DNA from: Actinoplanes lobatus
GTDB lineage: Bacteria > Actinomycetota > Actinomycetes > Mycobacteriales > Micromonosporaceae
Direction of reading: 5' to 3'
Assembly: GCF_014205215.1 (NCBI RefSeq)
Contig: NZ_JACHNC010000001.1
Span: forward strand, 1,989,001-2,053,000
DNA: 64,000 bases
Numbering within the stretch: position 1 is the stretch's first letter; every line of letters starts with the position of its first letter. Under the pieces are notes generated by a model. The model saw nothing but the letters and a program-made list of their open reading frames with translations, was not told the origin of the DNA and did no database searches. Below, piece by piece: positions 28,364 through 36,917 of this stretch. The position numbers were made by a program, and so were the translations under genes.

Positions 28364-29839
28364 TCAGAACTCGCAGCTGACCAGGGTGTCGCCGGGGGAC
28401 TCCCGGCAGCCGTCGCCGCGGGTGCCGTGCGGGCCGCCGTCGAGCAGGTCCACCGTGCCGGTGGTGTCGCCCTGTTCGTGCAGGTCGTCGTCGCCGTCAC
28501 CGCCGTAGAGGCGATCGAGGCCCGCCTCGCCCTGGAGGAAGTCGTTCCCGGCATAGCCGGTGACGATGTCGTTGCCCGCGCCGCCGGTGATGTAGTTGTC
28601 CGCGGCATTGCCGGTGAGCCGGTCGTTGCCCGCGCCGCCGTAGATGTTCTCCACATCGGCGCCCACGCTGTCGTGCTCGCCGGCCAGACCGTCATCGCCG
28701 GTCGCGCCGTCGAGGTCGACGCTCACGGCTGCGGTGTAGCTGTGGTAGCTGACAGTGTCGATACCGTCACCGCCGGCCAGGAAGTCGGAAGCTGCCGTGG
28801 CGGAATCGATGTCGCCATACATGTCGTCGTTGCCTGCACCACCGTAAAGCCGGTCTCGACCCTGGTCACCACCCATCTGATCATCGCCACCGAGCCCGAT
28901 CAGCACGTCGTCGCCGGCCAGACCGCCCAGGAGGTTGCGGCTTCCGTTGCCGGTCAGGCGGTCGGATGCCTTGCCGCCGACCAGAGACTCGACGTCGGCG
29001 CCGATGGAGTCGCGCTCACCGGCCTGACCGTCGTCACCCGTAGCGCCGTCGAGGTCGGCGGTCACCGGCTTGACCCGTTCGGTGTAGGCGACGTGATCCA
29101 GACCGGATCCACCGGACAACAGGTCGCTGTCCGTGGTGTAACCCCAGTTCTGGTCCAGGACATCGTCACCGCCCTCGCCGTAGGACCGGTCGTTGCCCGG
29201 CCCATCGAAGAGATAGTCGCTGTCAGCCCCGCCATACAGCACATCGTTGCCGGAATATCCACGAATATCGTCGTGCCCGTCGCCGCCGTAGAGACGGTCC
29301 GCGCCGTCGTGCCCGACCACGACGTCGTCCCCGGGACCGCCGCTGACGACGTCGTTGCCGACGTTGCCATTCATCGTGTCGGCACCACCCTGACCCCAGA
29401 TGCGGTCGGCTCCGCTTCCGCCGAAAAGACGGTCGCCCCGTGGTCCGCCGGTAAGACGGTCGGCACCGCTGCCCCCGTCAGCGCTCAGGCCGACATCGCT
29501 GCGGTTGTCCACCGAGTCGTTGCGGTCGTAGGTGTAGACCTGCACTCGCGCCGGACCCTGCGCGATGGTGCACCGCACCCGCGTCCTGTCGCCTTGGACC
29601 GCTTTACAGCCCTTGCCGACAGCAAGGGTCACGACATCGTCGATCATCACGGTGTTGCCGCTGCGGCTGATCACGACCCGGTTCTGGTCACCGCCGGCCG
29701 CCTTGTACTGAACCTTGGTGGTCTCGACGACCTGGACGATGCCTGTGGACGCAGCCTGGGCCGGCGATGCGAGCATCCCGGCGGCGACGGTCAGCATGGC
29801 AGACAGGCCGGCACGAACCGACCATGAGGATTCCAGCAC
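28364..29839 (-). CDS. secreted calcium-binding RTX-like repeat protein (family member 3)
   Basis: The largest family member in the window, 491 residues. Signal peptide ending ASPAQAA. The shared N-terminal domain shows VVETTKVQYKAAGGDQN, NTVMIDDVVTLAVG and the Cys pair GCKAVQGDRTRVRC. A first RTX block is followed by two internal copies of VDLDGATGDDGLAGEHDSVG-type segments (first copy TADLDGATGDDGQAGERDSI, second copy VDLDGATGDDGLAGEHDSV), each preceding a further RTX block; this suggests an internal duplication. The C-terminus GDGC...LVSCEF keeps the Cys pair. GTG start with GGGAGG upstream. Export by Sec and calcium binding are inferred. Confidence 0.85.
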   Translation of the reverse strand: MLESSWSVRAGLSAMLTVAAGMLASPAQAASTGIVQVVETTKVQYKAAGGDQNRVVISRSGNTVMIDDVVTLAVGKGCKAVQGDRTRVRCTIAQGPARVQVYTYDRNDSVDNRSDVGLSADGGSGADRLTGGPRGDRLFGGSGADRIWGQGGADTMNGNVGNDVVSGGPGDDVVVGHDGADRLYGGDGHDDIRGYSGNDVLYGGADSDYLFDGPGNDRSYGEGGDDVLDQNWGYTTDSDLLSGGSGLDHVAYTERVKPVTADLDGATGDDGQAGERDSIGADVESLVGGKASDRLTGNGSRNLLGGLAGDDVLIGLGGDDQMGGDQGRDRLYGGAGNDDMYGDIDSATAASDFLAGGDGIDTVSYHSYTAAVSVDLDGATGDDGLAGEHDSVGADVENIYGGAGNDRLTGNAADNYITGGAGNDIVTGYAGNDFLQGEAGLDRLYGGDGDDDLHEQGDTTGTVDLLDGGPHGTRGDGCRESPGDTLVSCEF

Positions 29840-30021: not shown

Positions 30022-30342
30022 ATGGCCCAGTACTTCGATTTAGTCATCCGTTGCCCGGCGTGCATCGCCGACGGGCGGGACGGCGGATTGCCCGGTTACT
30101 GGTATCACCATCAGTGCGGCGGTGGACTCCAGATCGGCGACGACGCCAACTATCAATGCAAGAGCTGCTTTCAGCGCCACCATGTGCGCAATTGGCGGTA
30201 TGCCTGCGAGCAGCACGAATCGGATTTCCGGGCGACCACCTCGGCCCATCTGGCCAACGCCGTGTCGACGGCCGGCCAGCTCACCAGCGTCGCCGGCCGC
30301 CGCTGGCTGATGACCTTCCTGGAAAACCTCGGCGACTGGTGA
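30022..30342 (+). CDS. small zinc-ribbon-like protein, first gene of AAA cassette (paralogue A)
   Basis: A 106-residue soluble protein, not assignable to a named family by eye. Cysteines are arranged as CPAC at 11-14, a lone Cys32, CKSC at 46-49 and WRYACEQH at 58-65, which suggests one or two zinc ribbons. The C-terminal third is helical: TTSAHLANAVSTAGQLTSVA, ending in [14 protein letters not shown]. Two further paralogues follow in the same operon (30339 and 33497). Its stop overlaps the GTG of the next gene (GTGA). I infer an adaptor, perhaps recruiting substrates to the AAA+ ATPase encoded downstream; no experiment supports this. Confidence 0.75.
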   Translation: MAQYFDLVIRCPACIADGRDGGLPGYWYHHQCGGGLQIGDDANYQCKSCFQRHHVRNWRYACEQHESDFRATTSAHLANAVSTAGQLTSVAGRRWLMTFLENLGDW

Positions 30343-30656
30343 TCACTTATCACCGCCTCTACTTCCGGTGCCCGGCATGCGTCGGCAGCGGTATGCGAAG
30401 CACCGTGGCCAGTTACTGGTACCACGACTGCGGCGGGCCGTTGGAGCTCGGCAGCAATGCGGCGATCCGCTGTACGAGCTGCTGGGAGGAGAGCCATGTA
30501 TCGAATTGGCGCTATTCGTGCAGCAACCACAGCGGTGACTACCGCGCCACCAATTCCGCGCTGTTCGCCAGCTCGATGAGCATGTCCGCCGCCCTCGTAC
30601 AGGCCGGTGGCCGCCGCTGGCTGATGAGCGTGCTGACCAACCTCGCGGACTGGTGA
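30339..30656 (+). CDS. small zinc-ribbon-like protein (paralogue B)
   Basis: A 105-residue paralogue of the gene just upstream, from the overlapping GTG at 30339. It keeps the pattern YFRCPAC, YHDCGG, RCTSC and NWRYSCSNH, then [19 protein letters not shown] and the ending [14 protein letters not shown]. The overlap of start and stop (GTGA) indicates translational coupling to paralogue A, so the two may be made in equal amounts and could form a heterodimer. The next gene, the AAA+ ATPase, starts 25 bases later. Confidence 0.72.
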
Positions 30657-30681
30657 GGGCGATACAGAAAGGGGCAGTGCA

Positions 30682-32839
30682 TTGCGAGTGGCCGAACCCG
30701 GCGTCGTCCTGACCGCCGTGCCGGAGGAGCCGCGGCATCGCGGCATGCATCTGGCCGTCGTGGCGGCCGACGTCGCCCCGCGACTCGGCGTCTCCGGCGG
30801 GCACGACGACCGCGCACCCCGGTACGTCCGGCTGGTGAACCCGGCCACCGGAGCGGCCGGATACGCCCGCCTGCACACCGGCGAGCACCTCGCGCCGGGC
30901 ATCGTGGCGGTGCAGGGATACATCCTGGACAACGCCGGAATCACCGCCGGCGAGAACGTCCGGGTGGAGCGGTGGGATCCGGAGCGGGACGCCCGGCCCG
31001 CGACCGAGGTGACGCTGACCCGGGTGGCCGGTCTCCCGGCCGGCCGGGTGCAGGCCGGCGGGGTACGGGTACGCCTCACCGACTCCGGGCTCACCTTCGT
31101 GCCCGGCCACCGGTTCTCGCTGCCGGCCGGCGGGGCGGACCTGACCTTCGAGGTGGTCGCCGCCGACCCGCCGGACGTACCGGTCCGGTGCACCCCGGAG
31201 ACCGTGCTGACCCTCCAGGACGCCACCGGCCCGGACACCGCCGACCGCACCACCGGCCGCCCGGAGGCCGCGGAGGACGTCTTCGCGGACATCGGTGGCC
31301 TGGACGCGGCGATCCGGCGGATCACCGAGCTGGTCATCTGGCCGGCCGAGCAGCCGGAGCTGTTCACCCGGCTCGGTATCGGCGCGGCCCGCGGCATCAT
31401 CCTGCACGGCCCGCCGGGCACCGGTAAGACCCTGCTCGCCCGGGCCGTGGCCAAGCGGATGGGTGCGCACTTCTTCCTGATCAACGGCCCGGAGGTGATG
31501 TCCAAGTTCTACGGTGAGGCCGAACGCCGGCTGCGCGAGGTGTTCGCCGAGGCGGCCGAGAAACAGCCGAGCGTGGTCTTCATCGACGAGCTGGACTCGA
31601 TCGCGCCGTCTCGGGACCGGGTCTCCGGCGACCTGGAGGTACGCCTGGTCAGCCAGCTGCTCACGCTGCTGGACGGGTTGCACGGCCGCGGCCAGGTGGT
31701 GGTCATCGGCGCCACCAACCGGCCGGCGGCGATCGATCCGGCACTGCGCCGGCCGGGCCGCTTCGACCACGAGGTGGAGATCGCCGCACCGGATCAGGCC
31801 GGGCGCCGCGACATCCTGCGGGTGCACAGCCGTGGCACCCCGCTGGCCGCCGGTGTGAACCTCGACGACCTGGCCGAACGGACCGTCGGGTTCGTCGGCG
31901 CCGACCTGGCCAGCCTGGTGCAGGAGGCGGCGTTCGCGGCGGCCCGGCGCCTGATGGGTGGCGGTCTGGATCCGGCGTCGCTGAGCCGCGCCGAGGTGGG
32001 CCCGGACGACTTCGCCGAAGGGCTGCGGACCGTGGCAGCCGTCGGCGTTCCGGCAACTGCGCCCGGCGCTCAGCGGACCCGACTGGGACGATCTGACCGG
32101 CCTGGAGGCCGCGAAACAGGCCCTGCTCCAGCTCGTCGACTGGCCGCTCACCCGGCGGGAACGGCTGGCCGGGCTCGGCGTGGCCCGGCCCGGCGCGCTG
32201 CTGCTCACCGGACCGCCGCTCGGCGGCAAGACCGGCCTGGTCGGGGCGCTGGCCCGGCGGATGTCGGCGACGCTCCTGCGCCTGCCGGCGATCGAGCTGC
32301 TCAGCCCGTGGGCGGGTGAGGCCGAGCGGATGATCCGCGACATCTTCGTGAAGGCCCGGCAGACGTCGCCGAGCATCGTGCTCATCGACGATCTCGACCG
32401 GCTCACCGCCGGCGATCCCGACCTGGTCCGTCGCCTGCTCGCGCAGGTGGACAACGAGATGACCCAACTGACGTACGCCACCGCGGCCTCGGTGATCGTG
32501 ACCGCCCGTACCGGGGGCCTGCCTCCGGCGGTCCGGCACGACCCGCTCTTCTCCGACGTCGTCGAGCTGGGCCTGCCGTCGTCCACGGAGATCCGTACGG
32601 TCGTGCAGCGCCGCCTCGCCCCGTACCTGGACGGGGAGGTGACCGCCGACGAGCTGGCCGCCGAACTCCGCGACCGTTCGATCGGCGAGGCGCTGCGGGT
32701 CTGCGACGACGCGCTGACCGGCGCGCTGTGGGACGAGCCGGATCACCCGGTCGTCCGGAAACAACACCTCATCACGGCTCTCGACCGTGCCACACACACC
32801 CGTACCACCAGTCCGGAGGAGGACGAGCTCAGTGTCTGA
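30682..32839 (+). CDS. CDC48/p97-like two-domain AAA+ ATPase with an apparent one-base frameshift
   Basis: The frame from the TTG at 30682 (AAAGGGG upstream; GTG at 30688 also possible) encodes a CDC48-type N domain (about 1-175), then D1 with Walker [16 protein letters not shown] (residue 243), Walker [11 protein letters not shown], sensor [20 protein letters not shown] and the second-region [14 protein letters not shown]. After GLRTV the frame turns to nonsense and stops at 32319. If one G at 32034-32035 is skipped, the expected linker [10 protein letters not shown] and a D2 domain follow to 32839 in the next frame. D2 has a weak Walker A (GPPLGGKTG) and DD in place of DE in Walker B. D1 is probably the active ring. 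The break may be a mutation, an assembly error or a programmed shift. Confidence 0.8.
32180..32839 (+). CDS. D2 AAA domain of the CDC48-like ATPase as a separate reading frame
   Basis: If the frameshift is real and not bypassed, the D2 part could only be made from an internal start such as GTG at 32180 (219 residues), for which no ribosome site is evident. It carries [33 protein letters not shown], and [10 protein letters not shown], i.e. a AAA core with altered nucleotide-binding residues. In the same frame, upstream codons from 32036 encode the missing D1-D2 linker ([20 protein letters not shown]), which is strong evidence that this was once one protein with the gene above. Its stop overlaps the next start by 8 bases. 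Confidence 0.5.
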
Positions 32840-33500
32840 CATCCCCAACGGAGGTCGCCGTCAGGTCGCGCCACGGCAGACCATGGAATCGCCGAAGCAG
32901 GTGACCCTCCAGTTCCTCGACGACACCTGGGAGCGGCTGCTCAACTCGCTGGAGCGGCTCGAGCAGGTGAGCGAGGGCTACCGCAATCTGACCGCCACCC
33001 GGCTCGACCAGCACCCGGACCGGGACCGGATCACCGAGTCGGAGCTGGACGTCCGCTGGGAGGTCCACCTCCAGATCAAGAGCCTCGAACGGATCATCAA
33101 GCCGGTCATCGAGGACGCGGAGTGGATGATCGCCGACTTCCTGCGCTGGTTCGGCGGCCGGGCCCGGCGGCCACTCGCGGTCACCGACGAGTACGCGGTA
33201 CCGGTCCTGCACTGCGTCATGGACCACCCGTACGAGCTGCCGGATCTCGACGAGGTGGTGCCCACCGAGAGGGACATCCTGGACGCCGCCGAGGCGCTCG
33301 GCCGTGGCCTGCACGAGTCCGACAAGATCGAGGAACGGTTCCTCGCCGACTCCGGGCTGGAGGCCACCCGGCACCTCCACACCCGCGCCCACAGCCGCAG
33401 CAGCGGCCTGGTCCGGCTCAGCGAACTCAACCGGAAGCTGGCCGTGCACCTGGCCTATCTGATCGACCACCCCCAGCCCGCGAAGGAGGAACCCAGATGA
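32832..33500 (+). CDS. helical protein of unknown function in the AAA/zinc-ribbon cassette
   Basis: A 222-residue soluble protein from the GTG at 32832, with GGAGGAGG upstream inside the end of the ATPase gene. It is mostly helical: VTLQFLDDTWERLLNSLERL, SELDVRWEVHLQIKSLERII, EDAEWMIADFLRWFGGRARR and ERDILDAAEALGRGLHES. No cysteine cluster, catalytic motif or membrane span is seen, and I do not recognise a family. Overlaps on both sides (8 bases with the ATPase, ATGA with paralogue C) mark it as an integral part of the cassette. It could be an effector, an oligomer scaffold or an ATPase cofactor. Confidence 0.75.
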   Translation: MSDIPNGGRRQVAPRQTMESPKQVTLQFLDDTWERLLNSLERLEQVSEGYRNLTATRLDQHPDRDRITESELDVRWEVHLQIKSLERIIKPVIEDAEWMIADFLRWFGGRARRPLAVTDEYAVPVLHCVMDHPYELPDLDEVVPTERDILDAAEALGRGLHESDKIEERFLADSGLEATRHLHTRAHSRSSGLVRLSELNRKLAVHLAYLIDHPQPAKEEPR

Positions 33501-33844
33501 GCCAGTACGACACCCAGGTTCCGGAAGCCGAGTGGTTCAGCCTGGTGATGCGCTGCCCGGCCTGCCTGTCCGAGCAGAAGGAACCCGGCCCGGCGGCGCA
33601 GTGGTTCCACGCCTCCGACGACGGGTTCGTGCAGGTGGGCAGCAGCGCCCAGTACCGCTGCACGAGCTGCCGGTGCGTCGAGCACGTGAAGAGCTGGCGG
33701 TACGCGTGCGAGGCGCACCAGACCGACTTCCGCCCCACCTCGTCGGCGCACCTGGCGAACGCGCTGTCCACCGCCGGGCAGATCACCAGCGTGGCCGGCC
33801 GGCAGTGGATGCAACGGTTCCTGGAGAACCTGGGCGAGTGGTGA
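33497..33844 (+). CDS. small zinc-ribbon-like protein (paralogue C), last gene of AAA cassette
   Basis: A 115-residue paralogue of the two proteins that open the cassette. It keeps MRCPAC, YRCTSCRC, SWRYACEAH and the C-terminal TSSAHLANALSTAGQITSVA plus WMQRFLENLGEW, which is closer to paralogue A than to B. The lone middle Cys of A and B is replaced (WFHASDDGFV), so only the CxxC, CxSC and CxxH sites are common to all three. The ATG overlaps the stop of the helical gene (ATGA), and a hairpin terminator follows 7 bases after the stop. Confidence 0.75.
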   Translation: MSQYDTQVPEAEWFSLVMRCPACLSEQKEPGPAAQWFHASDDGFVQVGSSAQYRCTSCRCVEHVKSWRYACEAHQTDFRPTSSAHLANALSTAGQITSVAGRQWMQRFLENLGEW

Positions 33845-33850
33845 GAACGG

Positions 33851-33887
33851 CGAAGGAGCCGGGGCGGGCCCGCCACCGGCTCCTTCG
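33851..33887. terminator. strong hairpin closing the AAA/zinc-ribbon cassette
   Basis: Perfect 12-base arms CGAAGGAGCCGG (33851-33862) and CCGGCTCCTTCG (33876-33887), with a loop that itself can pair (GGCGGG / CCCGCC). It lies between the cassette end and the stop of the converging repeat protein, so it can end both transcripts. Confidence 0.75.
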
Positions 33888-33906
33888 TGTTCGTCCAGGG
33901 TGCGAT

Positions 33907-35127
33907 TTAGGCCGGCGGGGCGGCGAGCAGGGTCTCGCAGCCGACCTGGACGTTGTCGGTGACGTTGGGGATGTAGCAGGTGTCGCCGGGCGTCTCGGTC
34001 ACGTTCTCGCCGGCGAGGATGACCTCGCGCCCGGTGCTGGACCCGGCGGGCTCGGCGTAGAGCCGGTCGTCGCCGCCCTCGCCGCTGAGGTAGTCGCCGC
34101 CCAGCCCGCCGTAGACGGTGTCGTCGCCGTCCCCGGCGTAGACGGAGTCGGCGCCCGAGCCGGTGTGGATGACGTTCGCCTTGGCGTCGCCGTAGATGAA
34201 GTCGGCGCCCGAGTGACCGACCAGGTTCTCGATCCCGAAGAGCATCTCGTACTCGGTCTGGCCGCCGATCGAGTTGTGTACGCGGCCGTTGCCCCGGTTC
34301 GGGGTGTACGCCATGTTGATGCTCAGTTCCATGCTCGCGCTCAGGTACGCGTAGCTCGCAACGTCGGTGCCCACACCGCCGTCGACCACGTCGTCGCCGG
34401 TACCTCCCTGGAGGTTGTCGGCACCGCCCTCGCCGTTCACCGTGTCCTTGTCGGAACCGCCGTTGAGCACGTCGTCGCCGTCTCCGCCGAACAGCTTGTC
34501 GTCGCCCGCGCCGCCGCTCAGGCTGTCGTTGCCGGCCTCACCCCGCAGGGTGTCGGTGCCGTGGTCGTCGATCAGCGTGTCGTTCCCCGCGCCGCCGGCC
34601 TGCGTGTCGTCACCCCGGCCGCCGACCAGGATGTCGTTGCCGTTCTGCCCGGCGATCGAGTCACGGCTTTCCAGGCCGTAGATGCGGTCGTTGCCATCGC
34701 CACCGAAGAGGGTGTCCGCCCCGGTGCCGCCGGTGATCGTGTCGTCGCCCGCGCCACCGTTGACGGTCACCGGGACGCCGCCACCGACCCGGGTGACGAA
34801 GGTGTCGTTCCCGTTCTGCAGGTAGACCTTGAGCGACTTGACGTTCTTCGTGGCGGTGCACTTGACCTTGGTCTTGTCACCCTTGACCGCTTTACATCCG
34901 GCGCCCGCCTTGACGGCGACCCGGTCGTCGATCGTGATCGTCCGACCCGAGCCGCTGACCACCACGGCATTGGTGGCGCTGGTCGCGGCGACGAAGGTGA
35001 CCGTGGTGCCGGACACCTTCGCCACGCCCGTGGCGGCGGCGAAGGCGGACTGGCCGGTGAAGGCGACCGCCGAAGCGGAGGCGACCAGCACCGCAGCCGC
35101 CCGGGGCAGCCAGATCTTGCGTCTCAT
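33907..35127 (-). CDS. secreted calcium-binding RTX-like repeat protein (family member 4)
   Basis: A 406-residue exported protein. Signal peptide ending TGQSAFAAA. The shared N-terminal domain is more divergent here (GTTVTFVAATSATNAVVVSG) but keeps RTITIDDRVAVKAG and the Cys pair GCKAVKGDKTKVKC. Regular RTX repeats such as GGAGDDTITGGTGADTLFGG follow, are interrupted by a non-repeat segment near residues 265-305 (SMELSINMAYTPNRGNGRV), then resume. The C-terminus has GDTC and VGCE and a longer tail ETLLAAPPA. ATG with GGGGAG 7 bases upstream. It converges on the AAA cassette. Confidence 0.85.
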   Translation of the reverse strand: MRRKIWLPRAAAVLVASASAVAFTGQSAFAAATGVAKVSGTTVTFVAATSATNAVVVSGSGRTITIDDRVAVKAGAGCKAVKGDKTKVKCTATKNVKSLKVYLQNGNDTFVTRVGGGVPVTVNGGAGDDTITGGTGADTLFGGDGNDRIYGLESRDSIAGQNGNDILVGGRGDDTQAGGAGNDTLIDDHGTDTLRGEAGNDSLSGGAGDDKLFGGDGDDVLNGGSDKDTVNGEGGADNLQGGTGDDVVDGGVGTDVASYAYLSASMELSINMAYTPNRGNGRVHNSIGGQTEYEMLFGIENLVGHSGADFIYGDAKANVIHTGSGADSVYAGDGDDTVYGGLGGDYLSGEGGDDRLYAEPAGSSTGREVILAGENVTETPGDTCYIPNVTDNVQVGCETLLAAPPA

Positions 35128-35291
35128 GTCGAACTCCCCGTGGAAATGGCGACGTCGCGTCGGGACGATACCGTTTCGTCAATTGGTATGCCATCCCCTT
35201 GATCGCCGGATGCCCGCCTCCATCGAGGCCGCTCCGGTCACGCCTAGACTGGGCCGGCGCCCGAAGACCGATCGGCCAGGGGAGATCCACG

Positions 35292-36917
35292 GTGAAGCTG
35301 GCCAGTGAGGTCTCCGCCGACAAGCTGCGGGGCGGCTTCTACTCGCCGGCCGGGCTGGTCCGGGTGTGCCTGGAGCGGGTCTCCACACTGGCGACCGGCA
35401 CCGGTTCCCTTCGGGTGCTGGAGCCCAGCGCCGGCGACGGGGCGTTCCTGCGCGGCATCGTGGCGCATCCGCTTCGCGAGCGGGTCGGCGACGTGGTGGC
35501 CGTGGAGATCCTGGAGCCCGAGGCGGCCGCCTGCCGGGACGGCGGCGCGGCTCTCGGCGAGAGCCTGCACGTGCATCACGGCAGCTTTCTGGACGACCAC
35601 GTCCAGCCGGCGCCGTCCTTCGATGTGGTGGTGGGCAATCCGCCGTTCGTCCGCTTCCAGTTCGTCGACGCCGACGAGCGGCGCAAGGCGGAGGCGATCG
35701 CCACGCGGCTCGGCGTGGCCCTCAAGGGCGTCTCCAACCTGTGGATCCCGATCCTGCTGAAGGCCGTGTCCTGCCTGCGTACGGGCGGGGTGTTCGCCTT
35801 CATCCTGCCCGCCGAGTTCCTCACCGGGATCTCCGCCTCGACGGTCCGGGACTGGCTGCTGGCCCACACCACCGAGCTGCGGATCGACCTGTTCCCGCCG
35901 AACTCATTTCCGGCGGTGCTCCAGGAGGTCGTGGTGCTCAGCGGACGGCGGCTCGACGTCTCCGCCGGGACGGCGAACCTCACCGTCTTCGACCACAGCG
36001 GGGATCGGCCGGCCTGGAGCCATCAGGTCCGTCCGGGCACACCCACGTGGACGAACTTCCTGCTGACCCCGGCCCAGGCGGACGCGTACACCGGCGCCTC
36101 CCGGTTGGCGGGCTGCATCGGCCTCGGTGGCGCGGTGCGGTTCAGGGTGGCCACGGTGACCGGCGCGAACGACTTCTTCTCGGTGGACGAGGCGACCGTG
36201 GAGCGGTACGAGCTGGAACCCTGGGCCCGGCCGCTGCTGCCCCGCATCCGTAACGCGCCCGGCCTGGTCTTCACCCAGAGAGATCACGACCGGATCCTCA
36301 GCGAGGGCGGCAAGGGCCGGCTCCTGGACTTCGCCGCCACCGCACCGGACCCGTCGGAGGTGTCCGGCCCCACCGGCTACCTCGGCCTGGGTGAGCGGGA
36401 TCTGCTGCACGAGCGGTACAAATGCCGGATCCGTACCCCGTGGTACCGGGTTCCCGTGGTCGCGCCCGGGGAGCTGCTGCTCTCCAAGCGGTCGCACCTG
36501 TTCCCGCGGGTCGTCCTCAACACCGTGTCAGCGGTCACCACCGACACGATCTATCAGGGCCGGCTCACCGCGGCGTACGCGCGGCGGGGCCGGGCCGTGG
36601 CGGCGTCGTTCCACAACTCGCTGACCATCCTGAGCGCCGAGATCGAGGGCCGTAGCTTCGGCGGCGGGGTGCTGGAGCTGGTGCCCAGCGAGGTGGCCCG
36701 GCTGCGGATCTTCGTGGCCGACGAGCTCGCCGAGGACCTGGGCCGGCTGGACGCCATCTCCCGGTCCACCGATCCGGACAAGGACAGCCTGCTGGTCGAG
36801 GAGACGGACCGGCGGCTGGCGAAGGCGGTGGACGGCCTGGACGACTCGGTTCTCGCCACCCTCGCGGACGCCCGTCGCACGCTTCTCCAGCGCCGTCTGG
36901 ACCGGAACCGGTCCTGA
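35292..36917 (+). CDS. class I N6-adenine DNA methyltransferase, apparently orphan
   Basis: A 541-residue methyltransferase. The N-terminal domain has GGFYSPAGLVRVCLERV, the SAM motif VLEPSAGDGAFLRGI and the catalytic NPPF in FDVVVGNPPFVRFQF (residue about 117), as in gamma-class M.TaqI-like or Eco57I-like enzymes. The C-terminal half (from about 230) would hold target recognition, including LLPRIRNAPGLVFTQRDHD and LLSKRSHLFPRVVLNT, similar to the TaqI-like specificity region. No nuclease gene lies beside it, so it may be regulatory, or one half of a scattered system. GTG start at 35292 with GGGGAG upstream. Confidence 0.82.
   Translation: MKLASEVSADKLRGGFYSPAGLVRVCLERVSTLATGTGSLRVLEPSAGDGAFLRGIVAHPLRERVGDVVAVEILEPEAAACRDGGAALGESLHVHHGSFLDDHVQPAPSFDVVVGNPPFVRFQFVDADERRKAEAIATRLGVALKGVSNLWIPILLKAVSCLRTGGVFAFILPAEFLTGISASTVRDWLLAHTTELRIDLFPPNSFPAVLQEVVVLSGRRLDVSAGTANLTVFDHSGDRPAWSHQVRPGTPTWTNFLLTPAQADAYTGASRLAGCIGLGGAVRFRVATVTGANDFFSVDEATVERYELEPWARPLLPRIRNAPGLVFTQRDHDRILSEGGKGRLLDFAATAPDPSEVSGPTGYLGLGERDLLHERYKCRIRTPWYRVPVVAPGELLLSKRSHLFPRVVLNTVSAVTTDTIYQGRLTAAYARRGRAVAASFHNSLTILSAEIEGRSFGGGVLELVPSEVARLRIFVADELAEDLGRLDAISRSTDPDKDSLLVEETDRRLAKAVDGLDDSVLATLADARRTLLQRRLDRNRS

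Follow-up and report, generated by a model that had tools for sequence, protein, structure and literature searches.

A stretch of 64,000 nucleotides from Actinoplanes lobatus (contig NZ_JACHNC010000001.1, positions 1,989,001 to 2,053,000 of the forward strand; hereafter the window) encodes a five-gene unit that probably forms a dedicated protein-remodelling machine. The unit combines three small paralogous zinc-ribbon proteins (ZR1, ZR2 and ZR3) with a CDC48-like AAA ATPase and a helical protein (HEL). It is rare in soil actinobacteria and has the same gene order in the three Micromonosporaceae genomes found to carry it.

A five-gene unit that ends in a hairpin

The five genes lie on the + strand in the order ZR1, ZR2, ATPase, HEL, ZR3, overlapping or nearly touching. 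Their coordinates in the window are as follows.

30022..30342, + strand: ZR1, small zinc-ribbon protein, 106 aa; in a tree clade of 11 rows (support 98/86)
30339..30656, + strand: ZR2, zinc-ribbon paralogue, 105 aa, GTG start, 4-base overlap with ZR1; in a clade of 10 rows (100/100)
30682..32839, + strand: CDC48/VAT-like ATPase, whole gene span, split over two frames in the window
30682..32319, + strand: ATPase open frame with the putative N domain and the first AAA module (D1); the last part of the frame, past the break, is not the ATPase reading
32051..32839, + strand: second AAA module of the ATPase (D2), in another frame than D1, placed by library matches and comparison with intact relatives
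32832..33500, + strand: HEL, helical protein (helices in the AlphaFold2 model), 222 aa, GTG start, 8-base overlap with the ATPase gene
33497..33844, + strand: ZR3, zinc-ribbon paralogue extended at its N terminus, 115 aa, joined to HEL by an ATGA junction; in a clade of 12 rows (100/97)
33843..33894, + strand: terminator-like hairpin at the end of the unit, placed by its folding energy against shuffles

A preliminary description of the window had given the extent of the five genes (30022..33844), the GTGA, 8-base and ATGA junctions, a 25-base gap and a strong closing hairpin, and the sequence bears out all of these. The hairpin 3' of ZR3 has a folding energy of -39.6 kcal/mol (z -4.55) that was equalled by 0 of 200 shuffles. 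By eye on the sequence, an inverted repeat also lies 3' of ZR3 in A. flavus and Allocatelliglobosispora.

These two genomes carry the same five genes in identical order (loci L011 and L010, respectively). Among 354 Micromonosporaceae genomes, HEL occurs in three; the same three hold ZR, with three copies in each, and an ATPase that matches the L010 one at E 1e-110 or better. The genes thus co-occur in related genomes, and this joint occurrence and the shared gene order sustain the proposal that they are a single unit. All five genes are genuine, and together they make up one unit.

The ATPase has one complete module and one degenerate module

The ATPase had been described as one plain gene. 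It is not one open frame in the window, where the N domain and D1 lie in one frame and D2 in another. It is intact as a single 718 aa open frame in A. flavus and Allocatelliglobosispora, and we therefore attribute the break to faulty sequencing or a recent mutation and do not regard it as conserved. The ratio of nonsynonymous to synonymous substitution rates (dN/dS) against A. flavus is low in both halves (0.16 for the N domain with D1, 0.18 for D2); hence no relaxation is visible, consistent with a break that is recent or a sequencing error.

The best match of both intact ATPases among solved PDB structures is the archaeal VCP-like ATPase VAT (PDB: 5g4g; 556.8 bits for L010, 550.8 bits for L011), and the alignment opens within the N-terminal part that precedes D1, at chain residue 65 or 58. 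The two AAA modules stand in tandem within the intact L010 protein. On the window ATPase, the Pfam model CDC48_2 scores 16.2 bits, under its cut-off of 22.4. The NCBIfam CDC48 model TIGR01243 gives 494.3 bits for L010 and 490.6 bits for L011, below the curated cut-off of 802.65 bits, and we consequently name the protein CDC48-like, not CDC48. The earlier label stands to that extent, as VAT/CDC48-like.

D1 possesses Walker A and B motifs, a sensor Asn, an Arg finger and a KFYG pore loop that compares with KYYG of VAT. In D2, Asp or Asn replaces the catalytic Glu, and the sensor Asn and RPGR are missing; a PWAG or PWVG pore loop is kept. A C-terminal HbYX motif defines proteasome-activating ATPases. 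Both intact proteins end without it (RRHHVS and EDELSV) and do not fit this definition.

The ATPase is 37-38% identical to an archaeal CDC48, 36-39% to two proteobacterial ones and 28-29% to the likely Cpa of the window genome, which is encoded at a separate locus (C1:1767484). PMC6017811 reports that the CDC48s found sporadically in bacteria other than Actinobacteria group with those of archaea. This clustering would fit acquisition by transfer, a point that our six-row tree does not decide. Among plasmids, 244 records match the ATPase at E 1e-40, 22 of them from Escherichia. Twelve of the 15 plasmid matches listed are annotated as CDC48 family AAA ATPase, and the weaker ones may be other AAA proteins.

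Three divergent zinc-ribbon proteins and a helical partner

ZR1, ZR2 and ZR3 all contain the CPAC, CxSC and WRYxCxxH motifs and the ending NL(G/A)(D/E)W, as first noted in the preliminary description. Chance does not come near to explaining this paralogy: a search with ZR1 in its own 10.4 Mb genome retrieves, at a threshold of E 0.001, ZR1 itself, ZR3 (E 8.6e-41, 56%), ZR2 (E 1.2e-31, 48%) and nothing else. In the ZR tree the three window copies fall into three separate, supported clades, and the three proteins are best read as non-redundant.

The two Cys pairs are nearly invariant among 94 aligned ZRs (C20 in 94, C23 in 92, C55 in 94 and C58 in 93). Such pairs are able to hold one zinc, which is the sequence pattern of a zinc ribbon, and the proteins presumably bind zinc. 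Their C-terminal tail is acidic and conserved, and Trp or Phe is the exact C-terminal residue in 91 of the 94. The AlphaFold2 model of ZR3 has beta elements followed by C-terminal helices, with a mean predicted local distance difference test (pLDDT) score of 89.6. The libraries searched contain no convincing family match for ZR, and ZR is not a known housekeeping family in them.

HEL is modelled by AlphaFold2 as helices only (mean pLDDT 80.2), with no clear fold match and no convincing family match in the libraries. Four of the five unit proteins belong to families without a description in the libraries searched.

Several side observations concern these proteins. In a ZR relative from a Thiotrichaceae bacterium (P0099), a hydrophobic N-terminal stretch may serve as a membrane anchor. 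Two HEL relatives (P0016 and P0019) have long C-terminal parts, and that of P0019 resembles, by eye, a further zinc ribbon. The G+C content of ZR1 (63.9%) and ZR2 (64.2%; together 30022-30656) lies below the 70.9% of the window, and that of ZR1 in Allocatelliglobosispora (L010:7468-7788) is 58.3% against 70.3%. This low G+C may hint at a foreign origin.

Sporadic occurrence and uneven conservation

HEL was found in 2 of 60 relatives searched. ZR was found in one of 397 genomes drawn from the order and one of 396 drawn from the phylum, each time only the window's own genome. A blastn comparison of 30 kb around the unit in the window with 20 kb around that of Allocatelliglobosispora, the most distant of the three carriers, gave matches confined to the unit (68.6% over 3986 columns), with an extra match between ZR1 and ZR3. 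The window and A. flavus share the flanks as well as the unit. Another genome of the genus Actinoplanes (G028) has the left flank in common with the window to about 28.3 kb, with RTX-like matches beyond, and lacks HEL.

Single-sequence searches retrieved 19 proteins with HEL (at E 0.001) and 20 with ZR3, and a ZR profile search retrieved 106 at E 0.01. Nine of the 19 HEL proteins lie on a contig with at least one ZR, where contigs were equated by equal size in the lists (28426, 1240, 4686091, 29352, 90939, 1963, 9885, 5738 and 1157 bases). The remaining ten have no such ZR match, and the contigs of five of these measure 1.0-2.3 kb. Beyond Actinomycetota, the hosts named for ZR matches are Planktothricoides, Roseofilum, Oscillatoria laete-virens, Limnospira fusiformis, Microcoleus anatoxicus and a Thiotrichaceae bacterium, all of filamentous habit. 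Limnospira and Microcoleus encode two ZRs each, apparently on one contig as judged by equal contig size.

Against A. flavus, dN/dS is 0.038 for both ZR1 and ZR3, 0.35 for ZR2 (nine amino-acid changes) and 0.30 for HEL. Against Allocatelliglobosispora the values are less reliable, dS being large (ZR2 0.23, ZR3 0.43, N domain with D1 0.47, HEL 0.57, ZR1 undefined); the best conserved proteins in this comparison are ZR1 (79%) and ZR3 (69%).

Comparison with known systems

The cassette ATPase resembles VAT in its putative N domain, two AAA modules and aromatic D1 pore loop. It differs in the loss of the catalytic Glu, sensor Asn and Arg finger from D2, and in its gene context, a five-gene unit that also encodes the ZRs and HEL. 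Cpa is likewise an actinobacterial tandem AAA protein of the CDC48 type. In Cpa, however, the sensor Asn and Arg finger are confined to D2 and D1 is mildly degenerate (PMC6017811); both intact cassette ATPases show the reverse, which sets them apart from Cpa.

PMC11090510 presents a predicted conflict system with a tandem CDC48-like ATPase that likewise has one degenerate module. There, only the C-terminal module keeps Walker A and B. The unit described here has no McrBC-type partner among its five genes. The FtsH-containing MoxR-vWA ternary systems of PMC7159879 also couple an AAA motor to helical proteins seen nowhere else, in hosts with multicellular stages; the main text of that paper does not use the term CDC48. 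In contrast to these systems, no MoxR, vWA or FtsH is encoded among our five genes. No vWA match was obtained for ZR1-ZR3, HEL or among the 20 families (E 0.01) matching the L010 ATPase, the best of which is a classical AAA model.

The IetA model of the anti-phage system IetAS matches the AAA modules (E 5.3e-44, L010). IetAS is defined by an adjacent subtilisin-like protease, IetS, and no IetS gene is present in the unit. The four other unit proteins gave no protease match, and the flanking genes were scanned in part. We recognised no paper in the open-access literature that describes the unit; preprints and most subscription papers lie outside this scope.

A proposed remodelling mechanism

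We propose a self-contained protein-remodelling machine composed of a D1-driven segregase, three non-redundant zinc-ribbon adaptors and HEL as a scaffold or coupling factor, with no protease. We credit this specific arrangement about as much as we doubt it. The ATPase would assemble as a VAT/CDC48-type double-ring hexamer, whose D1 ring would do the ATP work while D2, predicted to be catalytically dead, could still offer an aromatic pore residue. The ZRs, together with HEL, would recognise a substrate or assembly and bring it to the ATPase; the likely docking element is their conserved acidic tail with its terminal Trp or Phe. The motor would then pull the target apart without degrading it.

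We infer the adaptor role of the ZRs and their binding to the ATPase, and their tails are the best candidate for a handle or dock. The target is unlikely to be degraded because the unit has no protease and the ATPase no proteasome-docking tail. A predicted double-ring motor with one working ring, three ZR partners, a helical partner and no protease points to extraction or remodelling, not degradation.

Several points weigh against this proposal. The window's own ATPase frame is broken, and the degeneracy of D2 is known from the window and two intact sequences only. The gene-neighbourhood evidence for the ZRs comes from Micromonosporaceae alone. Relatives of ZR outnumber those of HEL, in a comparison of a profile search at E 0.01 with a single-sequence search at E 0.001 that is not like-for-like, and the ZRs may therefore also work without HEL or the ATPase. 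Finally, the ZRs could equally be clients of the ATPase.

Neighbouring genes

RTX-like proteins with GGxGxD-type repeats, read from translations, flank the unit on the - strand (28364-29839 and 33907-35127). Related sequences lie near by in A. flavus and G028 too, and we therefore regard the region as variable and repeat-rich. One further gene lies 1.4 kb downstream of the unit.

35199-36917, + strand: Eco57I-like type II DNA methyltransferase (PADLOC MTase_II, 350.9 bits; Pfam)

This methyltransferase is also encoded in A. flavus, at 89% identity.

Alternative explanations

The three ZRs and HEL could instead form a heteromer with an activity of its own, which the ATPase disassembles or resets, as TRIP13 does with HORMA proteins. 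PMC7159879 names this TRIP13/HORMA mechanism. ZRs occur in sets, with two or three, often of different clades, on several contigs (equated by equal size); the exact C-terminal end of the tail could be a grip for the motor, and three different adaptors are many for one rare motor. No effector domain, however, is recognised in any of the five proteins. We regard this explanation as possible and on balance unlikely, and prefer ZRs that bring substrates over ZRs as the remodelled assembly.

The preliminary description also raised a conflict system. The unit could serve multicellular bacteria in conflict, against phages or otherwise, with a motor that sets a threshold or pulls out proteins of the invader. 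Its sporadic occurrence in Actinomycetota and its hosts make this role attractive, and the hosts outside Actinomycetota match the theme of PMC7159879. A helicase gene about 1.5 kb upstream of the Allocatelliglobosispora unit (L010:3810-5996, - strand) matches PADLOC PsyrT (724.5 bits), and the methyltransferase lies close to the unit in the window. The support remains circumstantial. No PsyrA partner was identified beside the PsyrT-matching gene, and the adjacent gene (L010:6011-6745) matches no PADLOC model at E 1e-5. RecQ helicases like PsyrT can be housekeeping genes, and this one may belong either to defence or to the ordinary RecQ-like helicases. Among the unit's proteins no nuclease, protease, NADase or membrane effector is recognised, and the best PADLOC match to either ZR or HEL, at E 0.011, is not meaningful. 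ZR has no relative in the phages, plasmids and viral contigs searched, and HEL none in the viral contigs. ZR1 and ZR3 each differ by one residue between the window and A. flavus, unlike typical arms-race genes. A defence role is possible, although we hold it to be rather improbable.

Two further roles fare worse. The ZRs might recognise DNA- or RNA-associated proteins that the motor strips off nucleic-acid-bound complexes, which seems to us quite unlikely. A developmental module for hyphal or spore-forming life, whose motor remodels a cell-division or spore assembly, is very unlikely. In its favour, Actinoplanes makes sporangia. A distinct Cdc48-family gene is also tied to hyphae and spores in haloarchaea (PMC10067837). 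Against it, the genus as a whole sporulates, yet HEL occurs in 2 of the 36 genus genomes searched, the window's own counted.

Implications

CDC48/p97 depends on adaptors. For the actinobacterial enzyme, the adaptor-dependence of the family is an obstacle to finding substrates, as stated in PMC6017811. The proposed remodelling machine would be a small operon that seemingly holds a CDC48-type motor with its own adaptor candidates, so that adaptor, motor and substrate could be examined together in a bacterial setting. The aromatic residue at the exact C terminus of the ZRs provides a simple docking hypothesis that is testable.

We further speculate, with considerable doubt, that the unit serves filamentous bacteria in conflict or quality control, as a system not yet described. 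Its sensor would be a ZR heteromer, with three paralogues in actinobacteria and two or more in some cyanobacteria, that marks or holds target assemblies and uses its acidic tail with the C-terminal Trp to present them to an archaeal-type unfoldase driven by D1. If this is true, sensor and unfoldase would correspond in bacteria to the p97/adaptor system and operate without ubiquitin.

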